From assembly GCA_019634925.1 (NCBI GenBank), contig JAHCAL010000002.1, positions 434,001 through 498,000 of the forward strand: a stretch of DNA of 64,000 bases. The letters are read 5' to 3'. The notes under the pieces were generated by a model. It searched no databases and had not been told where the DNA came from. It was given only the letters and a program-made list of their open reading frames with translations. Source of the stretch: Pseudomonadales bacterium (lineage in GTDB: Bacteria; Pseudomonadota; Gammaproteobacteria; Pseudomonadales; Azotimanducaceae). Shown here piece by piece: positions 5,506 through 16,216 of the stretch (position 1 is the stretch's first letter; each line of letters begins with the position of its first letter). Both the position numbers and the translations under genes were made by a program.

Positions 5506-7176
5506 ATGCACCAGACCGCCGACCTGCTGATCCAGAACGCCCGAATCGTGGACGGTACCGGGGCGCCCGCCCGCAGCGGTGACGTGGCCGTACACGACGG
5601 ACGGATCGTCGCCGTGGGACGGTTCGACGGTACGGCCGCCCGGACGCTCGATGCCGCCGGACGCATCCTCACGCCTGGATTCATCGACATCCACACCCAC
5701 TTCGACCCACAGCTGTGCTGGGACGGACTCGCGACGCCGTCGATCGAGCACGGCGTCACGACGGTCTTCATCGGCAACTGCTCGCTGAGCCTGGCGCCCG
5801 TACGACCCGACGGAAAAAACAAACTCATCAACATGTTCCAGGTCATCGAAGACATCAAGAAGGGCACGTTCGACGCGGCGGTGCCGTTCTCCTGGGAAAG
5901 CTTCCCCGAATACCTCGGCTTCATCAGCCCGAACCTCGGCATCAACGTGGCCGCACTGATCGGGCACTCGGCGCTGCGCTATTACGTGATGGGGCCGGCC
6001 AGCCAGCAGCGCACGGCGACGCCGGCGGAGCTGGCCGAGATGTGCCGGCTGGTCGAGGAAGCCATGGCCGCGGGCGCGGCCGGCATCTCCTCGTCGTACG
6101 TCGACATCGACGAGAACATGCAGCCGGTACCGAGCCGTTTCGCGGATCTCGACGAAAAGATCGCGCTGGCGCGCGCCATGGCAAAGAGCGGCCGCGGCGT
6201 GTGGCAGGTGGTGCCGTACTTCCCGGACATCAAGGTCGAACTCGAGAACATCCGTGAACTCGGCGAAATCAGCCTGGCGGCGGGTATTCCGTGTTCGCTG
6301 CAGCCGGTGCTGTCGTCACCGCTGTCGCCGCTCGCCAACGAGATCATCGCGGCGCTCGAGGCCGAGCAGGCGCGCGGCGCACGCGTGTACGGCCAGGTCA
6401 TGCCGCGCTGCTTCGATCTCAACATGCGGCTCGCCGAAACCAGCATGCTGCTCTACGCCCTGCCGGGCTGGAAAACGATCATGGACCTGCCGCGCCACGC
6501 GCGGCGCGCACGCTTCGAGGACCCGACGACACGCGCAGCGCTGGTGAGCGAGATGAAGCAGGCCGCCGGCATGAGCGGCGCACTGCCGTTCCTGATCGTC
6601 GGCAGTGTCACGCACCCCGACAACAAGCCCTACCAGGGGCGCAGTCTCATGGAGATCGCGCAGACCGAAGGCCGTGAGCTCGGCGACGTGATCCTCGACC
6701 TCTCATTGCGCGACGACCTCAACACCGAGTTCAAGCTGGTCAACGTGCTGAATGCCGACAAGGCTTCGGTCGCCCAGCTCATCGGCCATCCGCTGCTGCA
6801 CTTCGGCGCATCCGACGCCGGCGCCCACATCACGCAGTTCTGCGGCACCGGCGACACCACCCACATGCTGGAGCACTACGTGCGCGACACCGGACGCCTG
6901 ACGCTCGAGCAGGCCGTGTACCGGATGACCGGCGAACTGGCACGCGACTGGGGCCTCGCCGACCGCGGCACCATCGAGCCGGGCAAGGCGGCCGACCTGG
7001 TCCTGCTCGACCTCGACCAGCTGCACTGCGGCGCCGAGGAATTCGTCGACGATTTTCCCGGCGAAGCGCGACGCTACGTGCGGCGCTCGACCGGGTACGC
7101 GGCGGTGATCGTCAACGGCGAGACCGTGTTCGAGAACGGCCGGTACACGGACGCGCGGCCGGGCCGAATCGTCTGA
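5506..7176 (+). CDS. N-acyl-D-amino-acid deacylase / D-aminoacylase-type amidohydrolase
   Basis: A 556-residue metal-dependent amidohydrolase. The HxH motif is HTH at residues 63-65 (FIDIHTHFDPQLCWDG). GVTTVFIGNCS supplies the Cys that serves as a metal ligand in D-aminoacylases, ALIGHSALR a further His, and HFGASDAGAHITQF the catalytic Asp region. The C-terminus has the usual IEPGKAADLVLLD composite-domain strand. It would hydrolyse an N-acyl amino acid or related cyclic amide in the cytoplasm. GGGGGAGGA directly upstream of ATG 5506 is a strong ribosome binding site. The gene stands alone and is followed by hairpin-rich repeats. Confidence 0.9.
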   Translation: MHQTADLLIQNARIVDGTGAPARSGDVAVHDGRIVAVGRFDGTAARTLDAAGRILTPGFIDIHTHFDPQLCWDGLATPSIEHGVTTVFIGNCSLSLAPVRPDGKNKLINMFQVIEDIKKGTFDAAVPFSWESFPEYLGFISPNLGINVAALIGHSALRYYVMGPASQQRTATPAELAEMCRLVEEAMAAGAAGISSSYVDIDENMQPVPSRFADLDEKIALARAMAKSGRGVWQVVPYFPDIKVELENIRELGEISLAAGIPCSLQPVLSSPLSPLANEIIAALEAEQARGARVYGQVMPRCFDLNMRLAETSMLLYALPGWKTIMDLPRHARRARFEDPTTRAALVSEMKQAAGMSGALPFLIVGSVTHPDNKPYQGRSLMEIAQTEGRELGDVILDLSLRDDLNTEFKLVNVLNADKASVAQLIGHPLLHFGASDAGAHITQFCGTGDTTHMLEHYVRDTGRLTLEQAVYRMTGELARDWGLADRGTIEPGKAADLVLLDLDQLHCGAEEFVDDFPGEARRYVRRSTGYAAVIVNGETVFENGRYTDARPGRIV

Positions 7177-7317
7177 GTGCGAGCCGCTGGCTCGCCAGGC
7201 GCGCTACTCGCGCGCACGAGTGCGAGCCGCTGGCTCGCCAGGCGCGCTACTCGCGCGCACGAGTGCGAGCCGCTGGCTCGCCAGGCGCGGTACGCCCGCG
7301 CACGAGTGCGAGCCGCT
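7177..7317. repeat. 43-bp tandem repeat, three copies plus a 12-bp partial fourth; each with a perfect hairpin
   Basis: Copies lie at 7177-7219 and 7220-7262 (identical) and at 7263-7305 (slightly diverged), with a partial copy at 7306-7317. Each unit contains GCGAGCC-GCT-GGCTCGC, a perfect 7-bp stem with a 3-base loop, and a second GC-rich dyad (GCGCG...CGCGC). The array begins at the base after the amidohydrolase stop codon and ends 72 bp before the Mrp operon start, so it may terminate or attenuate transcription. No T-tract follows. Confidence 0.9.
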
Positions 7318-7389: not shown

Positions 7390-7893
7390 ATGCAACGGAA
7401 TACGCAAAATCCTGCGACACTCGCGACCCGGTTCGTCCTGCTGTTCGGCATCTGGCTGGTCATCACCGGTTTCGCCGCTTCGGCTTGGCCCGTCGGCGCG
7501 ATTGCGGCTGCCACCGGTACCGTGCTCAGTCGGTCACTGCTGCCCCGGGGCCACGCGTGGCCGGCGCCCGGCCCGCTCCTGCGCCTGTTGGCCGGATTCC
7601 TCTGGGGCTCGATCCGCGGCGGATTCGACGTGGCCTCCCGCGCTTTTCACCCGCGTGCTCCGCTGCGACCTGCCTGGCTCGAGTATCGCCTCCGGCTGCC
7701 GGAGGGTCCCGCGCGGGTTTCGCTCGGTAATCTGCTCAGCCTGATGCCGGGAACCCTCTGCGCAGGCTGCAAGCGCGAACTCCTGTACGTGCACTGCCTC
7801 GATCGCGAGCATGCCGACCTCACGGCAATCGCCACCGAGGAAGCCCGCATCGCCGCGACACTGGGCATTCAGCTGGAGCCGCGGCATGGCTGA
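7390..7893 (+). CDS. mrpE: Na+/H+ antiporter subunit E (MnhE/MrpE-like)
   Basis: A 167-residue membrane protein with two hydrophobic segments in the first 50 residues (RFVLLFGIWLVITGF and the VGAIAAATG stretch), a third around LLRLLAGFLWGSIRGGFDV, and the family's soluble C-terminal domain (NLLSLMPGTLCAGCK, YVHCLD). ATG 7390 was chosen; an in-frame ATG at 7363 would add nine residues and has no better ribosome binding site. It is the first gene of an eight-gene antiporter operon and overlaps the next gene by 8 bp. Cys129 and Cys132 of LCAGCK are uncommon in this subunit. Confidence 0.88.
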   Translation: MQRNTQNPATLATRFVLLFGIWLVITGFAASAWPVGAIAAATGTVLSRSLLPRGHAWPAPGPLLRLLAGFLWGSIRGGFDVASRAFHPRAPLRPAWLEYRLRLPEGPARVSLGNLLSLMPGTLCAGCKRELLYVHCLDREHADLTAIATEEARIAATLGIQLEPRHG

Positions 7894-8173
7894 GATCCTG
7901 ATCGGATTCGCGGCAGGCATCCTGCTGCTGGTCCTGCTGAGCCTCGCCCGCGTCGTCGTCGGACCGACCGTTGCCGACCGGATGATGGGCGCGCAACTGG
8001 CCGGCACCGGTGGCATTGCCATGCTGATGCTGCTCGCCGGCGCGACCGACCGCCCGGCAGTGCTCGATGTCGCGCTGGTGCTCGCGCTGCTGGCCGCGTT
8101 CGCCGTGGTCGGTTTCGCCAAGGCCACCAGTCCCGACGGTGCGGGCGATCCGGAGGAAAGCGATCCGCCATGA
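7886..8173 (+). CDS. mrpF: Cation/H+ antiporter subunit F (MnhF/MrpF-like)
   Basis: A 95-residue, three-helix membrane protein. The family signature LARVVVGPTVADRMMGAQL is clear. ATG 7886 overlaps the end of mrpE by 8 bp (ATGGCTGA), which makes this start more likely than an in-frame upstream one at 7811. The last 15 residues are acidic and cytoplasmic. It ends in a 4-bp ATGA overlap with mrpG, so translation is probably coupled. Confidence 0.92.
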   Translation: MAEILIGFAAGILLLVLLSLARVVVGPTVADRMMGAQLAGTGGIAMLMLLAGATDRPAVLDVALVLALLAAFAVVGFAKATSPDGAGDPEESDPP

Positions 8174-8481
8174 CGGTCTTCGATATCCTGACCCTGGCCT
8201 GTGCAGCGCTGGGCATGGTGTTCTTTGCCGCGGGAACCGTCGGCCTCCTGCGCTTTCCGGACGTCCACAGCCGTCTCCACGCACTCACCAAGGCTGACAA
8301 CCTGGGGCTTGGACTGATCGCGCTCGGCCTTATTTTCCAGGCCGAGGGAATTGCGACCGCGCTCAAGCTGCTGCTGGTCTGGCTGCTGGCCATCTTCGCT
8401 GCTGCCACCGCCTCGCAGCTGATCGCGCGCGCGGCACTGACGGGCCTCGACGACGACACGCCGGCGGACCCGCGCCCATGA
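8170..8481 (+). CDS. mrpG: Cation/H+ antiporter subunit G (MnhG/MrpG-like)
   Basis: A 103-residue protein with three membrane helices. The conserved GLLRFPDVHSRLHALTKADN loop identifies the MnhG/PhaG family. It starts in an ATGA overlap with mrpF and ends in an ATGA overlap with the next gene. Together with E and F it forms the small-subunit half of the antiporter complex in the cytoplasmic membrane. Confidence 0.93.
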   Translation: MTVFDILTLACAALGMVFFAAGTVGLLRFPDVHSRLHALTKADNLGLGLIALGLIFQAEGIATALKLLLVWLLAIFAAATASQLIARAALTGLDDDTPADPRP

Positions 8482-9428
8482 CCGCGCTCGCCTTCGACAC
8501 GCTGCTCGCCATCGCGATCGCCGCCACTGCCGCGGGTGCCGTCGTGGCCCGGGGACTGTACGCATCGATCGCCCTGTTCATCATCTACGGCCTGATGCTC
8601 GCCGTGGCCTGGGTCAGGCTCGAGGCCATCGATGTCGCGCTGGCAGAGGCCGCCATTGGCGCGGGGCTCACCGGCATACTGCTGGTAGGTGCCGCGGCCC
8701 GCTGCCGCGCCGTCGAGCGCCGGACCGGCGCGATCGGAGATGGCTCGGGCGAGCGCCGCACCCTGCTCCGAACGATTCAGGGTGCCATGGCCGGCGTGCT
8801 TGCCGCAGCCGTCGGCGCGGCGGTCCTGCTGCTGCCCGACAGCGCGCCTGGCCTCACCGCGACGGTCGCGGGCACGATCGAGCGATCGGGCGTCAGCAAC
8901 CCCGTGACCGCGGTGCTGCTGAACTTCCGCGGCTACGACACACTGCTCGAGTCCATGGTTCTCGTGGTCGCCCTGGTCGGCGTCTGGTCGCTCGGCGCCG
9001 AGCAGTTCTGGGGCGGACGCCCGGGACTCAAGCAGCACGCCCGAACCGACGGCGTGCTCGCCTATTTCGGACGCATGCTGCCCCTGGTCGGACTCCTGGT
9101 GGGCATTCACCTGCTCTGGGCTGGCGCCCATGCACCCGGCGGGGCTTTCCAGGCGGGGACCGTGCTTGCCGCGGTGTGGTTGCTGGTGGCGATGGCCGGC
9201 CTGCGCGACGCTCCCCCCATCGCGAGCATGCGCCTGCGATTGCTGATCGTCGTGGGGCCCGCCTGGTTCCTCGCGGTCGGCGCGATCGGCGCACTCGCCG
9301 GCAGCTTTCTGGGGTTGCCGGAGGCCTTCGCCAGCGAACTCATTCTGGCCATCGAGGTGCTCCTGACCCTGTCGATTGCCGTCACGCTGGTGCTGCTGGT
9401 GCTGGGCGTACCGAGGCGGACCACATGA
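8478..9428 (+). CDS. Fused MbhD-MbhE-MnhB antiporter subunit (MrpA tail domains joined to MrpB)
   Basis: A 316-residue polytopic membrane protein built of three family domains. Residues 1-75 resemble DUF4040/MbhD (IDVALAEAAIGAGLTGILLV). Residues about 95-175 resemble MbhE (NPVTAVLLNFRGYDTLLESM). Residues about 190-310 are the MnhB domain (HAPGGAFQAGTVLAA). In canonical Mrp complexes the MbhD and MbhE domains form the C-terminus of MrpA, and MrpB is separate; here they are fused to MrpB. ATGA overlaps join it to the genes on both sides. The domain calls rest on motif recognition and should be checked by profile search. Confidence 0.85.
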   Translation: MTALAFDTLLAIAIAATAAGAVVARGLYASIALFIIYGLMLAVAWVRLEAIDVALAEAAIGAGLTGILLVGAAARCRAVERRTGAIGDGSGERRTLLRTIQGAMAGVLAAAVGAAVLLLPDSAPGLTATVAGTIERSGVSNPVTAVLLNFRGYDTLLESMVLVVALVGVWSLGAEQFWGGRPGLKQHARTDGVLAYFGRMLPLVGLLVGIHLLWAGAHAPGGAFQAGTVLAAVWLLVAMAGLRDAPPIASMRLRLLIVVGPAWFLAVGAIGALAGSFLGLPEAFASELILAIEVLLTLSIAVTLVLLVLGVPRRTT

Positions 9429-9745
9429 CCGGCATCACGCTGTTCGGACTCACCGGCGCGCTCGTCATCGGACTCGGCGTCTTCGGACTCGTGGCCCGGC
9501 ATCACCTGGTGCACCGCGTGCTCGCCTTCAACCTGATCGGCAGCGGCATCTTCCTGCTGTTCGGCGCGCTCGCGAGCCGCTCACCGAACGGTACCGATCC
9601 GGTACCTCAGGCGCTCGTGATCACCGGCATCGTGGTGGCCCTGGCCGCTACAGCGCTCGCCGTCACGCTGATCACCCGCTTCGCCGAGGCAAGCGGCCGT
9701 ACCCATCTGCCGGACGACTCGGAGGATGGTGATGGCGCTGTCTGA
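9425..9745 (+). CDS. mrpC: Cation/H+ antiporter subunit C (MnhC/NuoK-like)
   Basis: A 106-residue, three-helix protein of the NuoK/MnhC family, with GVFGLVARHHLVHRVLAFNL in the first half and DPVPQALVITGIVVALAATA in the second, both conserved family segments. ATG 9425 lies in an ATGA overlap with the preceding gene; a much longer open frame from 9176 is ignored because it overlaps that gene. It would sit between the antiporter-like subunits and the E/F/G group. Confidence 0.92.
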   Translation: MTGITLFGLTGALVIGLGVFGLVARHHLVHRVLAFNLIGSGIFLLFGALASRSPNGTDPVPQALVITGIVVALAATALAVTLITRFAEASGRTHLPDDSEDGDGAV

Positions 9746-11240
9746 TTGGCTCGCACCGGACATGGCCTGGGCGGCGTTCTCGGTGATCGTCCCGCTGGCC
9801 GCCGCACTGCTGAGCCTGCCGCTCGCCCGGCACGCCCGCTACATCGCGCTGCCCGCCGCCCTGCTCGGGCTGATCGTCGCGTGCGCGAGTGCAGCGCAGG
9901 TGTGGTTGCACGGCGCCGTCCTGCTCGCGGCCGGCGGCTGGGCACCGCCCCTCGGCATCGTGCTGCGGCTGGATGGCCTGGCAGCCGCGTTTCTGGTGCT
10001 GACAGCAGCGATCTCGACCGCCGTGGCCTGGTACGCCTTGCCGCAATTCGCGGCCCGTGGCGCCTCAGAATCCCGCAGCGGGTTCGCGTTCTGGCCGCTG
10101 CTGTTCTTCCTGTGGGCGGGATTGAACGCACTGCTGGTCAGCAATGACCTGTTCAACCTCTACGTGGCACTGGAACTGATCGGGCTCACGGCGGTGGCGC
10201 TGGTGGCGCTGGACGGCAAGCCCGCGGTGATCGCCGCGGCGCTGCGCTACCTGCTGTTCGCCCTGTTCGGTTCGCTCGCCTACCTCCTCGGCGTGGTACT
10301 GCTGTACGCCCAGTACGCGACCCTCGACATGACGCTCCTCCGTCACGTCGCGCAGGCGGACTTCGCGACCCTGCTCGCTGCCGCACTGATGACTGCCGGC
10401 CTGCTCGCGAAGACGGCACTCGTGCCACTCCATGCGTGGTTGCCACCGGCTCATGCGGGCGCACCAGCGCCGGCCAGCGCCCTGCTGTCGGCCCTGGTGG
10501 TGAAAGGCTCGTTCTACGTGGTGATTCGCCTCTGGTTCGACGTGCTGCCGAACCAGGCAGGCGCGGCGTTCACGACGCTGCTCGGCACATTGGGCGCACT
10601 CGCGATCCTGTACGGATCCGCGCTCGCCTTCCGGCAGAACCGGCTCAAGCCGATCATCGCCTATTCGACGGTGGCTCAGCTCGGTTACCTGTTCCTGGTC
10701 TTCCCGCTCGCGGGTGGCGCGGGCGAGGCACAGCCCTGGGGTGCTGCCGCGTGGTCCGGCGGCATGTTTCACGCGCTATCCCACGGGCTCGCGAAAGCCG
10801 CGATGTTCCTGGCCGCCGGCACCCTGATCCAGGCGGTGGGTCACGACCGCATCGACGGTCTCGACGGCATCGCGCGCAGCATGCCGATTGCCGCATTCGC
10901 GTTCGGACTGGCCGCCATCTCCCTCATGGGCCTGCCGCCGAGTGGCGGCTTCACCGCGAAATACCTTCTGCTGACCGCTGCGCTGGCCGCGGGGCAATGG
11001 GGCTGGGCGATCATCATGATCGTCGGCGGGTTGCTTGCCGCCGGCTACCTGTTCCGGGTGCTCAACCGATTCCTGCTCGAAGGTGATCGCAGCGCAACCC
11101 TGCAGGCGGTACCCGCCGGTGGACAGATCATCGCGCTGCTGCTCGCACTGGCGGCGATTCTGCTCGGACTGCTGTCGGCTACGCCGTATGCGCTGCTGCA
11201 GATCGGCCGTCCGGATGCCGCGGCCGGAGGCCTGTCGTGA
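9732..11240 (+). CDS. mrpD: NuoL/M/N-like antiporter subunit 1 (MrpD-like)
   Basis: A 502-residue protein with about 14 membrane helices of the proton-conducting transporter family PF00361. The conserved TM5 glutamate is present (NLYVALELIGL), as are the TM7 lysine (LLAKTALVPLHAWLPPAH) and the TM8 lysine (ALVVKGSFYVVIRL). ATG 9732 is preferred over ATG 9726 because GGAGG at 9721-9725 is then six bases away. It overlaps mrpC by 14 bp and the next gene by GTGA. It should carry out proton or sodium translocation. Confidence 0.9.
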   Translation: MALSDWLAPDMAWAAFSVIVPLAAALLSLPLARHARYIALPAALLGLIVACASAAQVWLHGAVLLAAGGWAPPLGIVLRLDGLAAAFLVLTAAISTAVAWYALPQFAARGASESRSGFAFWPLLFFLWAGLNALLVSNDLFNLYVALELIGLTAVALVALDGKPAVIAAALRYLLFALFGSLAYLLGVVLLYAQYATLDMTLLRHVAQADFATLLAAALMTAGLLAKTALVPLHAWLPPAHAGAPAPASALLSALVVKGSFYVVIRLWFDVLPNQAGAAFTTLLGTLGALAILYGSALAFRQNRLKPIIAYSTVAQLGYLFLVFPLAGGAGEAQPWGAAAWSGGMFHALSHGLAKAAMFLAAGTLIQAVGHDRIDGLDGIARSMPIAAFAFGLAAISLMGLPPSGGFTAKYLLLTAALAAGQWGWAIIMIVGGLLAAGYLFRVLNRFLLEGDRSATLQAVPAGGQIIALLLALAAILLGLLSATPYALLQIGRPDAAAGGLS

Positions 11241-12703
11241 GCGCCTGGCTGCCGGTGCTCGTGCTCTCGACGTCGCTGGTCACTGCGATCGCCATTTTCC
11301 CGCTGGCGCAGGCGCGGCAACGCCTGCGCACCGGGGTGAACCTCGCCGGCGCTCTCGCCAAGCTCGCGCTGGTCGCCATCATGCTGGAGGGTGTCGCACG
11401 CGGCGAGATCTACGAAACGCGGCTCGCCCTGCTGCCCGGGCTCGATTTTCTGTTGCGGGTGGACGCTCTCGCGCTGCTGTTCCTCACGCTGTCCGCCGTG
11501 CTGTGGCTGCTGACCACGATCTATGCCATCAGCTATCTCGGCGACAGCCCGCATCTGTCGCGGTTCTTCGGCTTCTTCAGCCTGTGCGTGGCCGCCACCA
11601 CCGGGATCGCCCTGTCGGGAACGTTGATCACGTTCTTCATCTTCTACGAACTGCTCACGCTCGCCACCTGGCCGCTGGTCGTGCACCGCGGCAACGCCGA
11701 ATCCATGGCGGCCGGCAGTCGCTACCTCGCCTACACGCTGGCCGGAAGCGCCGTGCTGCTGATCGGCATCGTCTGGCTCGAGAGTCTCACGGGACCGATC
11801 GAGTTCGATCGACCCGGACAACTGGTCGGTCTGGACCCCGCTGCGCTGCAGGCCATCTTCTGGCTGCTGATCGCCGGGCTCGGCGTCAAGGCAGCCATCG
11901 TCCCGCTGCACGGCTGGCTGCCCAGCGCGATGGTCGCACCGGCGCCGGTCAGCGCGCTGCTCCACGCGGTCGCGGTGGTGAAGGCCGGCGCGTTCGGCAT
12001 CGTACGCATCATCTACGACGTCTACGGCACCGGGCTCGTATTCGAGCTCGGTATAGGTCTGCCACTCGCGCTAGTCGCCTCGTTCACGATCATCTACGGC
12101 TCGATGCGCGCGCTGCAGCAATCCGACATCAAGCGCCGGCTCGCCTACTCCACGGTGAGCCAGGTTTCCTACATCGTGCTGGGTGCGAGCGTGTTCGGGC
12201 CTTTCGCGACCATTGGCGGACTGGTCCACCTGGTGCACCAGGGCCTGATGAAGATCACCCTGTTCTTCGCGGCCGGCGCCTTTGCCGAGCGCATGCACGC
12301 GTACCGGGTCACGGATCTGGCCGGTGCCGGACGCAGCATGCCCTGGACCGCGGCCGCATTCACCATCGCCGCCCTCGGCATGATCGGTGTGCCACCGATG
12401 GCCGGCTTCATCAGCAAATGGTACCTCGGCGTAGGCGCCGTTCAGGGCGGCTTCATCTGGGTGATCCCGGTCCTGATCGGCAGCAGCCTGCTGAACGCCG
12501 CCTACTTCCTGCCGGTCGTGTACCGGCTCTGGTTCGCACCGGCGTCGGGTCGGGCCGATCCAGGCTCCGAAGGTCCGTTGTGGCTCATTGCACCAGCGGT
12601 GATCACCGCGTTCGCAGCCCTGTTCGCGGGGCTGCTCGCCGGACTGGGGCTCAGTCCGCTCGGTTGGGCGACAATGATCGTCACGCGGAACTACAGCCCA
12701 TGA
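11237..12703 (+). CDS. NuoL/M/N-like antiporter subunit 2 (MrpD/NuoN-like)
   Basis: A 488-residue polytopic protein of the same family. It starts at GTG 11237 in a GTGA overlap with the previous gene. The TM5 glutamate is present (FFIFYELLTLATWPLV), with AGLGVKAAIVPLHGWLPSAM and ALLHAVAVVKAGAFGIVRII carrying the two channel lysines and GFISKWYLGVGAV a further lysine. This is a full proton-channel set. It is the second of three tandem antiporter-like paralogues, and ends in an ATGA overlap with the third. Confidence 0.9.
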   Translation: MSAWLPVLVLSTSLVTAIAIFPLAQARQRLRTGVNLAGALAKLALVAIMLEGVARGEIYETRLALLPGLDFLLRVDALALLFLTLSAVLWLLTTIYAISYLGDSPHLSRFFGFFSLCVAATTGIALSGTLITFFIFYELLTLATWPLVVHRGNAESMAAGSRYLAYTLAGSAVLLIGIVWLESLTGPIEFDRPGQLVGLDPAALQAIFWLLIAGLGVKAAIVPLHGWLPSAMVAPAPVSALLHAVAVVKAGAFGIVRIIYDVYGTGLVFELGIGLPLALVASFTIIYGSMRALQQSDIKRRLAYSTVSQVSYIVLGASVFGPFATIGGLVHLVHQGLMKITLFFAAGAFAERMHAYRVTDLAGAGRSMPWTAAAFTIAALGMIGVPPMAGFISKWYLGVGAVQGGFIWVIPVLIGSSLLNAAYFLPVVYRLWFAPASGRADPGSEGPLWLIAPAVITAFAALFAGLLAGLGLSPLGWATMIVTRNYSP

Positions 12704-14400
12704 ACACGCCGGCCATGCTGCTCCTGGCGCTGACGGTGACGGTACCGGTTGCCTTGCTGGCAGCCGTGCCGCTGGTGGCTCGACCGCTGCGGCTGCTGCC
12801 GTGGGCTGCACTGCCGGGGCTCGCGACGGCGTTGATCGCGCCGGCCGGCACCACGCTGCACGTCCCGGTGCTGCTGATCGGTCTCACGTTCGAGATCGAC
12901 CAGACCGCAAAGGCGTTCCTCGGCTTCGGCGCACTGCTGTGGCTGCTGGCGGGCATCTACGCAAGCGCGTACCTCGAGAGGGCGCGCAACAGGGGGTCCT
13001 TCGCAATCTTCTGGCTGCTCACGCTGGCCGGCACGCTCGGCACATTCGTCGCAGGCGACCTGGTGAGCTTCTACCTGGCGTTCTCCATGATGTCGCTCTC
13101 GGCCTATGGACTCGTCATCCACGAACGGACCGACGCGGCCCGCCGGGCCGGACGCATCTACATCGCGCTGGCCGTGATCGGCGAGAGCGCATTGATCGCA
13201 TCGTTCATGGTGGTAGCGACCGGTGCGACGAGCCTCGGCTTCGCCGACGTCCGCCAGGCGCTCGCCGACGCACCAGACGCGCACTGGGTGCTGGCCGGTC
13301 TAGTCGTCGGATTCGGCATCAAGGCCGGGCTGGTACCGCTGCACGGTTGGCTTCCACTCGCCCACCCACAGGCGCCGACGCCGGCATCGGCCGTGCTGAG
13401 CGGGGTCATCGTGAAGGCCGGCATTCTCGGTCTCATCCGACTCCTCCCCGACCAGGGCGTGTGGCCCGAATGGAGTGCGCTCCAGGTGGTGGTCGGGCTC
13501 GTCACAGCAGGATACGGCGCGATCGTCGGTCTGACCCAGCGTGACGCCAAGGCCGTACTCGCCTATTCGACCCTGAGCCAGATGGGGCTGGTGGTGAGCG
13601 TGCTCGGCATTTCGCTGGGCCTGCACGAGCGCTCCGCACACGCGGACGCCGTCACCCTCTACGTGCTGCATCACGGGCTCGCGAAAGGCGCGCTGTTCCT
13701 CGGTGTCGGTGTCATGGCGGCGATCGCCACGCGCTGGCGGCGCCCGGTCCTGGCCGCGCTCGCATTGACAGCGCTCGCGATCGCCGGATTGCCCCTGACC
13801 GGCGGCGCACTCGCGAAGCTTGCCATCAAGGCCCCGCTCGGGGACGACCTGGCGGCCACGCTGGTCACCCTGTCGGCCGTCACCACCGCGCTGCTGATGC
13901 TCCACTTTCTTCGCGTCGTCGCGGGGTCGTCCGCGAGCGCGCACCGACCTGCGCCCGCGATGATCTGGTCCTGGGCGACTGCGACGGCCGCCGCATTCGG
14001 CGCGACGTGGTACACATTCGAAGGCCTCGTTCACGCGCCGCCTTCCGCCGTGTTCGCGTTGCAGAACCTCTGGGGTGGTGCCTGGCCCATCCTGCTCGCC
14101 GCAGCCGTCGCGGCCGTGCTGATACGCACTACCCGGCAGCTGCCCGGCCTTCCCCAGGGCGACGTGGTCGTACTGGCAGAGCGCCTCGGCGCAAGCCTGC
14201 GCCAGGTCGGATCCGTTCGCTTCCGCGCGCTGCCCCGGCTTCCCATGCGGCTGAACGAGTTCCTCCGCGACTGGGTTCCGGGGCGATTCGAGAGCATCGA
14301 ACGCAGCCTTCGCGCCTGGCCTGTCGCCGGGTTCTTCATCACGCTGGTGGTGCTCGCCCTCGTGCTCAGCCTGGCGCCTGGCACAAGCCCGCCGGGCTGA
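12700..14400 (+). CDS. NuoL/M/N-like antiporter subunit 3, lacking the TM5 glutamate
   Basis: A 566-residue polytopic protein and the last gene of the operon. It starts at ATG 12700 (ATGA overlap). The channel lysines are kept (GFGIKAGLVPLHGWLPLAH, SGVIVKAGILGLIRLL), but the aligned TM5 segment reads FYLAFSMMSLSAYGLV, with Ser129 where its two sister subunits have Glu. The C-terminus has about 70 extra residues (a soluble Arg-rich stretch and a final helix, GFFITLVVLALVLSLA), recalling the longer NuoL and MrpA-type subunits. It may be a coupling rather than a translocating subunit; that is inference. Confidence 0.87.
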   Translation: MNTPAMLLLALTVTVPVALLAAVPLVARPLRLLPWAALPGLATALIAPAGTTLHVPVLLIGLTFEIDQTAKAFLGFGALLWLLAGIYASAYLERARNRGSFAIFWLLTLAGTLGTFVAGDLVSFYLAFSMMSLSAYGLVIHERTDAARRAGRIYIALAVIGESALIASFMVVATGATSLGFADVRQALADAPDAHWVLAGLVVGFGIKAGLVPLHGWLPLAHPQAPTPASAVLSGVIVKAGILGLIRLLPDQGVWPEWSALQVVVGLVTAGYGAIVGLTQRDAKAVLAYSTLSQMGLVVSVLGISLGLHERSAHADAVTLYVLHHGLAKGALFLGVGVMAAIATRWRRPVLAALALTALAIAGLPLTGGALAKLAIKAPLGDDLAATLVTLSAVTTALLMLHFLRVVAGSSASAHRPAPAMIWSWATATAAAFGATWYTFEGLVHAPPSAVFALQNLWGGAWPILLAAAVAAVLIRTTRQLPGLPQGDVVVLAERLGASLRQVGSVRFRALPRLPMRLNEFLRDWVPGRFESIERSLRAWPVAGFFITLVVLALVLSLAPGTSPPG

Positions 14401-14428
14401 CTCGACCCTCTGCGCGCGCAATGAACAA

Positions 14429-14449
14429 GGACCGCAAGGTCATCGGTCC
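14429..14449. terminator. Possible weak bidirectional hairpin between convergent genes
   Basis: GGACCG and CGGTCC form a perfect 6-bp stem around a 9-base loop in the 70-bp gap between the antiporter operon and the converging DUF3604 gene. There is no T-run on either side, so a Rho-independent terminator is only a weak possibility. Confidence 0.3.
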
Positions 14450-14470
14450 CACCTCCGTCGATCCTCTTCG

Positions 14471-16216
14471 TCAGCCGCTGCCGTCCGCACCGGGCAGGTA
14501 CCAGATCGGAGACGACCACGCGCGCTCGGTGACCAGGCGGTCCGCGCGCGGGAACTCGTCGCAGCGGCCGGTTTCGCGACACTTATGGGCGGACCACCGC
14601 GGCGACGCGACCTCCTGCACCCGTGCGTACCAGAACGCGGGGTGCAGTGGATCGAACGCCGGGTCTTCCCAGCTGACGCAGATCTCGCGTTCCTCGCCGG
14701 TCCAGACGGCGATCACTTCCTCGTGGAATGCGCCGTCGCGGAAACCGCCCTTGATGATCTCGACCCGCTCGAGCGGCACTCGATCGAACAGCGCCTGCAC
14801 GCGGAACCGGGGCCGGCTCGTCGCGGAAGCGAACTCACCACCCATGACCACACGATCGGCGGCATCGGCCGCGACCGCATCGCAGCCGAGCGGCTGCCCC
14901 GCAGGACTCGCTTCGAATCGGAGTCCGATACGGGTACCGCTGGTCGCATAGACCTCGCGGCGCGCCAGGGCATCGAATATCGCGGCGCGCGTGTTCTGCT
15001 CCGCCCAGACGCCGGTCAACCCACCCGGGTTCCAGTCGAGCCGACTCATCGTGCGATCGAGGTCGCCCATGCCGAATACCGTACCCGGCCAGGCGTCCTC
15101 TTCGACCAGACCCGGGGTGGCGGAATGGGTATCGGTGCTGCCCACGATGCCGAGCTGCAGCGGATTGCGGCGCGCCGAGCCGGACGCGCCGTACCCCTCG
15201 AGTCCGCGCAGCAGGAGCGATCGCACGTACGTGGAACGCGTACGTTCCCATTGTTCGGCGGTCAGGTCGGCGGGCGCCGGGCTGCGCGACTGCCAGCTGA
15301 GCCGGACTTCCATGCCGCAGTCCGCTTCGTCCGTGACGCCGAACGGCGCGAGGCATTCGCTGTTGCCCTTCTCCTGGAAGACCTCCACCAGGCGCTCGTA
15401 GCGTGCCCGTGCACGGAGCTGTTCGTCGCTCTCACTCTCCACGTCGAACGACTTGCCGTCGCCCATGTTGGTGTTGTGTGGAATGGTCATGACCGAGCAC
15501 CCGGCCGCGGGATCGCATTGCCTGTCGAGGGCCTCGAACAGGTCGTCGAGACGCGGATAGCGGATGTAGTCGATGGCGTCCGCCGTCACCACGCTGCCGC
15601 GGAAGATCACGTTGCGATGGTTGTGACTGGCATCCGGCGTGGCCGACCACTCGAATCCGATCAGCGCGGAGAAATGGCATGGATCGTCCGCCGCATTCGC
15701 CTGGTCCTGGATGCTCCGCCACTGGCTGCGCGCGACCGCCATGCAGTGCGCACCGTCCTCGCGGCAGACCGACAGCGCCTGCGGCGCTGGCTGGGTGATG
15801 GACGGGACGACGAAGGTCGCAAAGTTTTTCGACCCGTTCAGCGGATCGTTGTTGCTGTTCAGCAGTTCGCAGTCGGGGTGCCCGGCGTTGGCCGGATCGG
15901 CGCAAATGGCCAGGAAGTCCAGCCACTCAGCGTGGTCGGTGACCGCTACGAAGTCGAGCGGCCGGTCGAGCTGCACGCGCGACCCATCGGCCAGCCTGGC
16001 GGGCGCGCCGCGCGCAAAGCCGTATGCCTCCGCGGGTGTCGCCAGCGTGCCGAATCCGAACGCATCGAGCGAATAGGCCGTATGGACGTGCAGGTCACCC
16101 CAATAGAGGTGTTTCACACCGTCCTGGCGGCCTTCGCACAGCACCTCGTCCACAACGCCGGCGACAGCGCCGATACAGAACAGCGAAGTAAGCAGAATGA
16201 CCGGAATGCTACGCAC
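14471..16216 (-). CDS. Exported DUF3604 domain protein
   Basis: A 581-residue protein of the DUF3604 (PF12228) family, recognised by YWGDLHVHTAYSLDAFGFGT, the FVAVTDHAEWLDFLA motif and GIVGSTDTHSATPGLVEEDA. These His/Asp motifs resemble the PHP-type metal site, so hydrolase activity is plausible but unproven. GTG 16216 is chosen: GAGGGGG lies six bases upstream and the protein then opens with a signal peptide (RSIPVILLTSLFCIGAVAG). The longer frame from 16282 would bury it. It is probably periplasmic. It is transcribed divergently from the membrane regulator at 16407, with 190 bp between the start codons. Confidence 0.88.
   Translation of the reverse strand: MRSIPVILLTSLFCIGAVAGVVDEVLCEGRQDGVKHLYWGDLHVHTAYSLDAFGFGTLATPAEAYGFARGAPARLADGSRVQLDRPLDFVAVTDHAEWLDFLAICADPANAGHPDCELLNSNNDPLNGSKNFATFVVPSITQPAPQALSVCREDGAHCMAVARSQWRSIQDQANAADDPCHFSALIGFEWSATPDASHNHRNVIFRGSVVTADAIDYIRYPRLDDLFEALDRQCDPAAGCSVMTIPHNTNMGDGKSFDVESESDEQLRARARYERLVEVFQEKGNSECLAPFGVTDEADCGMEVRLSWQSRSPAPADLTAEQWERTRSTYVRSLLLRGLEGYGASGSARRNPLQLGIVGSTDTHSATPGLVEEDAWPGTVFGMGDLDRTMSRLDWNPGGLTGVWAEQNTRAAIFDALARREVYATSGTRIGLRFEASPAGQPLGCDAVAADAADRVVMGGEFASATSRPRFRVQALFDRVPLERVEIIKGGFRDGAFHEEVIAVWTGEEREICVSWEDPAFDPLHPAFWYARVQEVASPRWSAHKCRETGRCDEFPRADRLVTERAWSSPIWYLPGADGSG

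Follow-up and report, generated by a model that had tools for sequence, protein, structure and literature searches.

An eight-gene operon in a Pseudomonadales genome probably encodes a stand-alone group 3 Mrp complex that would act as a Na+(or K+)/H+ antiporter, in which two proton subunits (D1 and D2) are canonical and the terminal subunit (D3) is NuoL-like and rewired. The operon occupies positions 7390-14400 of the window, the whole 64,000-nucleotide stretch of DNA that was analyzed. Group 3 Mrp systems are defined by the lack of mrpA and the presence of mrpD only, sometimes in several copies (PMC8415708). The operon fits this group (CPA3): mrpD-type genes are present and no mrpA was detected in the assembly, which is 87% complete, and MrpE, MrpF, MrpG, MrpC, and MrpB-type domains are clustered, with MbhE alone below its Pfam cut-off. 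Gene content, gene order, residue patterns, fold matches, and spread were all computed.

The eight open reading frames (ORFs) lie on the forward strand and overlap by 8, 4, 4, 4, 14, 4, and 4 bp. Pfam profiles identified them in order as MNHE, MrpF_PhaF, PhaG_MnhG_YufB, MbhD + MbhE + MnhB, Oxidored_q2, and 3 Proton_antipo_M proteins. The first genes are mrpE-like (7390-7893, 167 aa; PF01899, 85.9 bits), mrpF-like (7886-8173, 95 aa; PF04066, 41.4 bits), and mrpG-like (8170-8481, 103 aa; PF03334, 84.2 bits). They are followed by an MbhD-MbhE-MnhB fusion gene, equivalent to the MrpA C-terminal part plus MrpB (8478-9428, 316 aa), and an mrpC-like gene of the NuoK family (9425-9745, 106 aa; PF00420, 56.2 bits). 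The last 3 genes, each matching PF00361, encode the MrpD-like D1 (9732-11240, 502 aa), the antiporter-like D2 (11237-12703, 488 aa), and the NuoL-like terminal D3 (12700-14400, 566 aa). The first-pass annotation had read the region as an Mrp operon of eight overlapping genes with 3 separate NuoL/M/N-like subunits; the ORF overlaps of 4-14 bp, the profile search of each gene (E, F, G, MbhD/MnhB, C, and D families), and the 3 PF00361 matches agree with that reading. A search for sigma-70-like promoters found none.

The 316-residue protein had been described as carrying, ahead of an MnhB domain, the domains normally found at the C-terminus of MrpA, and both profiles and structure confirm this arrangement. 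MbhD (PF13244, 50.0 bits) and MnhB (PF04039, 39.2 bits) were recognized, so the expected MbhD match held; the expected MbhE match failed on score, this portion being the sole one below the Pfam cut-off (PF20501, 21.1 versus 27 bits). Yet the MbhE stretch matches subunit E of the MBH complex in a PDB comparison and contains an invariant LNFRGYDTLLE motif, and a paralogous fusion in the same genome scores above the cut-off (33.4 bits). Together with the structure match, these observations indicate that the MbhE part is real. The AlphaFold model of the fusion (pLDDT 79.5) aligned colinearly over 289 residues with residues 597-920 of Dietzia MrpA (Z 20.2), and the second-best match was MBS subunit E (Z 14.2). 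By the Dietzia match, the fusion corresponds to the last third of a group 2 MrpA, encoded by its own gene. Residues E57, R151, D154, and E158 are invariant in an alignment of 42 relatives. In Bacillus pseudofirmus MrpA, mutation of R773/E780 abolishes antiport (PMC5703873); the same R-x6-E spacing occurs in the fusion and also in the canonical MrpA of one relative. From these residues, we infer that the fusion may retain the cation path.

The absence of MrpA extends beyond the operon. PF00361 had six matches genome-wide, all D-type ORFs, 3 in this cluster and 3 in a second, divergent E-F-G-fusion-C-D-D-D Mrp cluster on contig C5 at 78-86 kb (6374-13800 of C5:72000-91999). A third set of PF00361 matches considered as a normal nuoLMN was rejected, as these belong to the second Mrp cluster. 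The 87%-complete assembly yielded no full-length MrpA with antiporter and C-terminal domains, the hallmark of group 1 or 2 Mrp, and none of the 61 genomes of the family reached the MrpA family cut-off; one relative has a canonical mrpA that is truncated where its contig ends. The proposal that the operon lacks MrpA therefore stands, and a full-length mrpA elsewhere as the real partner was sought in this assembly and not found. Likewise, the assembly gave no match for the anchor NuoH (PF00146), for a NuoD/group-4-hydrogenase-like large subunit (PF00346), as complex I, MBH, or MBS would have, for NqrA, or for DabA (PF10070), the partner in DAB/DAC systems. PF00146 was also missing from two congeners (96% complete). 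NuoH is present in 26 of the 61 sampled genomes of the family.

D1 and D2 are most likely canonical antiporter-like proton subunits, judging from their key residues. The TM5 glutamate and TM7 lysine (Glu148 and Lys227 in D1, Glu138 and Lys218 in D2) are present in all 78 D1 and all 74 D2 sequences, and the column of NuoL D178 holds Ser, Gly, or Ala. In the family tree, D1, D2, and D3 each form a single clade (support 99-100). The D1 clade lies on the MrpD/NuoN side with weak support, and the D2 clade also takes in the D2 of the second cluster. All D1, D2, Nuo, Hyf, and Mrp subunits in the comparison have the TM5 glutamate, whereas it occurs in none of 66 D3 sequences, which have Thr, Ala, Ser, Val, or Gly instead (Ser129 in the window) in an ungapped alignment beside a mostly conserved GD motif. 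D3 therefore lacks the canonical TM5-Glu/TM7-Lys pair, although the TM7 lysine (Lys208) is kept in 65/66 and replaced by Arg in 1/66. An acid at the NuoL D178 column of TM6 (Glu162 in the window) is present in 66/66 (Glu in 38, Asp in 28), which led us to abandon the view of D3 as merely a dead subunit. Where NuoL has its TM6 arginine, all 66 carry a hydrophobic residue. Thus, by residue pattern, D3 is a subunit in which exactly the inner TM6-acid/TM7-Lys pair is retained.

The second half of D3 is variable. The window D3 retains Lys208 (TM7), Lys239 (TM8), His325, Lys329, and Lys373 (TM12), and with its second-half lysines in place a full proton path would be possible. These lysines are also missing in the 28 Asp-type sequences, which come from gammaproteobacteria, Nitrospinota, and one unassigned locus; in most of them, the part after TM7 is shorter by about 140 residues. 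The Shewanella frigidimarina D3 (13633-14970 of its locus), for example, has 445 aa and no second-half lysines; this shortened protein and other Asp-type loci retain the TM6 Asp, the TM7 Lys, and an HL-like C-terminal tail. In the window D3, the tail comprises 66 residues with no predicted TM helix and then one last TM helix, resembling the helix HL brace, and the same elements occur in 9/9 long and short D3s checked. The D3 model (pLDDT 88.8) has its best structure matches in NuoL, ND5, and MrpA (Z 38-41). Since D3 groups with neither MrpA nor NuoL in the tree, its likeness to NuoL is one of fold and one residue and does not imply descent.

The residues altered in D3 belong to known ion pairs. 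NuoL contains Lys229/Asp178 and Arg175/Glu144 pairs (PMC13144422). DabB2 keeps the Lys/Asp-type pair but lacks the Glu of the second; an open state has been proposed for it, and restoring the Glu with I151E halved growth yield (PMC13144422). When the TM5 Glu of Nqo12 and Nqo13 was changed to Gln, proton conduction rose strongly (PMC11496545). The coupling role of the TM5-Glu/TM7-Lys switch in antiporter-like subunits is a central question, debated for both Mrp and complex I. We found no report of consistent D3 rewiring in the open-access literature, a search result that does not show it to be unreported.

We propose the following model, in which assembly order, antiport activity, ion identity, and stoichiometry are putative. 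The proton motive force would drive multi-subunit Na+(or K+)/H+ antiport, with MrpA split over two genes. MrpE, MrpF, MrpG, and the MbhD-MbhE-MnhB fusion would form the cation-path module, which MrpC would link to D1 and D2, the subunits predicted to move protons. D3 would be the terminal NuoL-like subunit, with its C-terminal amphipathic helix bracing the arm. Its coupling pair would be rewired, as the TM5 Glu and TM6 Arg that pair in NuoL are gone and the inner TM6-acid/TM7-Lys pair is kept. If DabB2 is a guide, D3 may be held "open" or non-switching, acting as a terminal conduit or brace and not as a third equal switched pump.

The first-pass annotation favored a three-channel version of the complex, possibly with a different ion stoichiometry or partner. 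If D1, D2, and D3 were three equal, fully switched channels, the proton-to-cation ratio would exceed that of a two-channel Mrp. Three PF00361 subunits in one operon fit this reading, as do the NuoL-like full fold of the window D3 and its retention of Lys208, Lys239, His325, Lys329, and Lys373. However, the TM5 glutamate, invariant in the D1, D2, Nuo, Hyf, and Mrp subunits compared, is missing from all 66 D3s, and 28 of them, most with the truncation after TM7, also lack the second-half lysines. We therefore consider three equal channels rather unlikely, and D3 probably does not serve as an ordinary third channel. The number of PF00361 genes should accordingly not be equated with the number of proton channels when ion stoichiometry is inferred from genomes.

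A different partner found no support either. The cluster could encode the membrane arm of a redox-driven complex not yet described, akin to complex I, MBH, or MBS, with the genes for electron input located elsewhere: its E-F-G-MbhDEF-C-D set resembles the MBH and MBS arms, complex I likewise has 3 antiporter-like subunits (PMC7684303), and the 87%-complete assembly holds no complex I of its own. Yet that assembly contains neither NuoH nor a NuoD/hydrogenase-like large subunit, no redox module was recognized among the recurrent neighbors of 80 related loci, and the group 3 Mrp known from Pyrococcus furiosus stands alone, with no energy-input module (PMC8415708), which makes a redox-driven complex highly improbable. 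Equally remote is the notion that D3 is a DabB-like module, merely co-transcribed with Mrp, that couples proton motive force to the uptake of inorganic carbon or to some other partner. Its coupling pair does resemble that of DabB2, with the TM5 Glu lost and the TM6 acid and TM7 Lys kept (PMC13144422), and in Nitrospira, bicA, a bicarbonate transporter gene, lies in the same locus as the Mrp genes (PMC7784846). But DabA was not found in the genome (assembly incomplete), the TM6 Arg kept in DabB2 is lost in D3, and D3 overlaps D2 by 4 bp and takes eighth place in most of the loci sampled. The stand-alone antiporter with a rewired D3 thus remains the preferred reading.

Several known systems share parts of this design. 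The stand-alone Mrp of P. furiosus (mrpEFGBB'CD) likewise has no mrpA, the E-F-G-B-B'-C-D order, and no energy-input module, and its MrpB is an MbhD-MbhE fusion (PMC8415708); it differs in having one D subunit instead of three, and in its separate MrpB and MrpB', which are fused here. 'Candidatus Nitrospira alkalitolerans' has two copies of a group 3 Mrp per genome, with two further NuoM/NuoL-like genes described directly after mrpD (PMC7784846), as here; BicA, NhaB, and motB neighbors, absent from the window, are named for those loci, which that source treats only in passing. One Nitrospira locus that we sampled has the same eight-gene order. Given the group 3 definition (PMC8415708) and the extra NuoM/NuoL-like genes noted for Nitrospira (PMC7784846), the operon is a further case of an already published kind. 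In the Dietzia group 2 Mrp (PDB 7d3u), which contains an MrpA-MrpB fusion, the whole MrpA C-terminus and MrpB are covered in order by the model of our fusion; there, the N-terminal antiporter domain shares the MrpA chain, whereas here this domain is missing from the chain and 3 separate D proteins are encoded. D3 resembles DabB2 of DAB2 (PMC13144422) in keeping the TM6-acid/TM7-Lys pair without the TM5 Glu, in its NuoL-like character, and in a short HL helix; unlike DabB2, it also lacks the TM6 Arg, and the partner DabA was not found in this genome. NuoL/ND5 of complex I is its best fold match (Z ~41), with the TM6 acid at the D178 column and an HL-like tail before the final TM helix; Glu144 (TM5) and Arg175 (TM6) are replaced by uncharged residues in D3, and there is no peripheral arm.

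The D3 of the second cluster forms a clade apart from the window D3, which suggests that third subunits may have been gained or modified on more than one occasion. It keeps the TM5 Glu, and Asn replaces its TM7 Lys in 11 of the 16 sequences of the family. A universal relocation of the lost lysine was not found, as a TM6 Lys is present in only 7 of the 11 Asn-type sequences. We tentatively suggest, with somewhat less confidence than doubt, a multi-phylum bacterial Mrp subclass whose third antiporter-like subunit lacks the outer Glu-Arg pair, keeps the inner pair only, and is permanently open or non-switching, with the D3 of the second cluster changed in the opposite partner. If so, both altered D3s would be natural experiments on how switch pairs couple ion movement. 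A widespread operon in which two copies are canonical and invariant and the third is consistently altered offers a built-in comparison.

The arrangement is widespread. At least 248 relatives of the fusion turned up in a pattern scan that covered about 85,000 species genomes, and 80 loci were kept. Most of them show the E-F-G-fusion-C-D1-D2-D3 order, or whatever portion of it the contig or search could show; the fusion is sometimes split into two ORFs, and in a few loci mrpE is placed elsewhere. They span Pseudomonadota (alpha, beta, and gamma), Nitrospirota, Nitrospinota, Planctomycetota, Verrucomicrobiota, Myxococcota, Gemmatimonadota, and Thermodesulfobacteriota. The eight-gene order of the earlier description held, and the arrangement is less unusual than that description suggested: the order occurs in several phyla, and the operon falls within the published group 3 Mrp (PMC8415708, PMC7784846). 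The fusion profile matched in 42/150 genomes, a figure that is no direct count of phylum-level prevalence because most matches were C-termini of full-length MrpA in 930-1040-aa frames. Recurrent neighbors in the 80 loci are ion-homeostasis and stress genes: Usp (24), P-type cation ATPase (13), CPA2 antiporter (8), and MscS (6). The nearest relatives come from other classes, namely a Bradyrhizobiaceae MAG (64-65% identity for the fusion, 81% for D2), Roseitalea, and Ramlibacter, and cluster copies in two same-family genomes share only 41-42% identity, which suggests horizontal acquisition of the cluster. Just 5' of mrpE and 3' of an amidohydrolase gene, the window carries a tandem repeat at 7175-7317 (43-bp unit, 3.3 copies, 97% matches).
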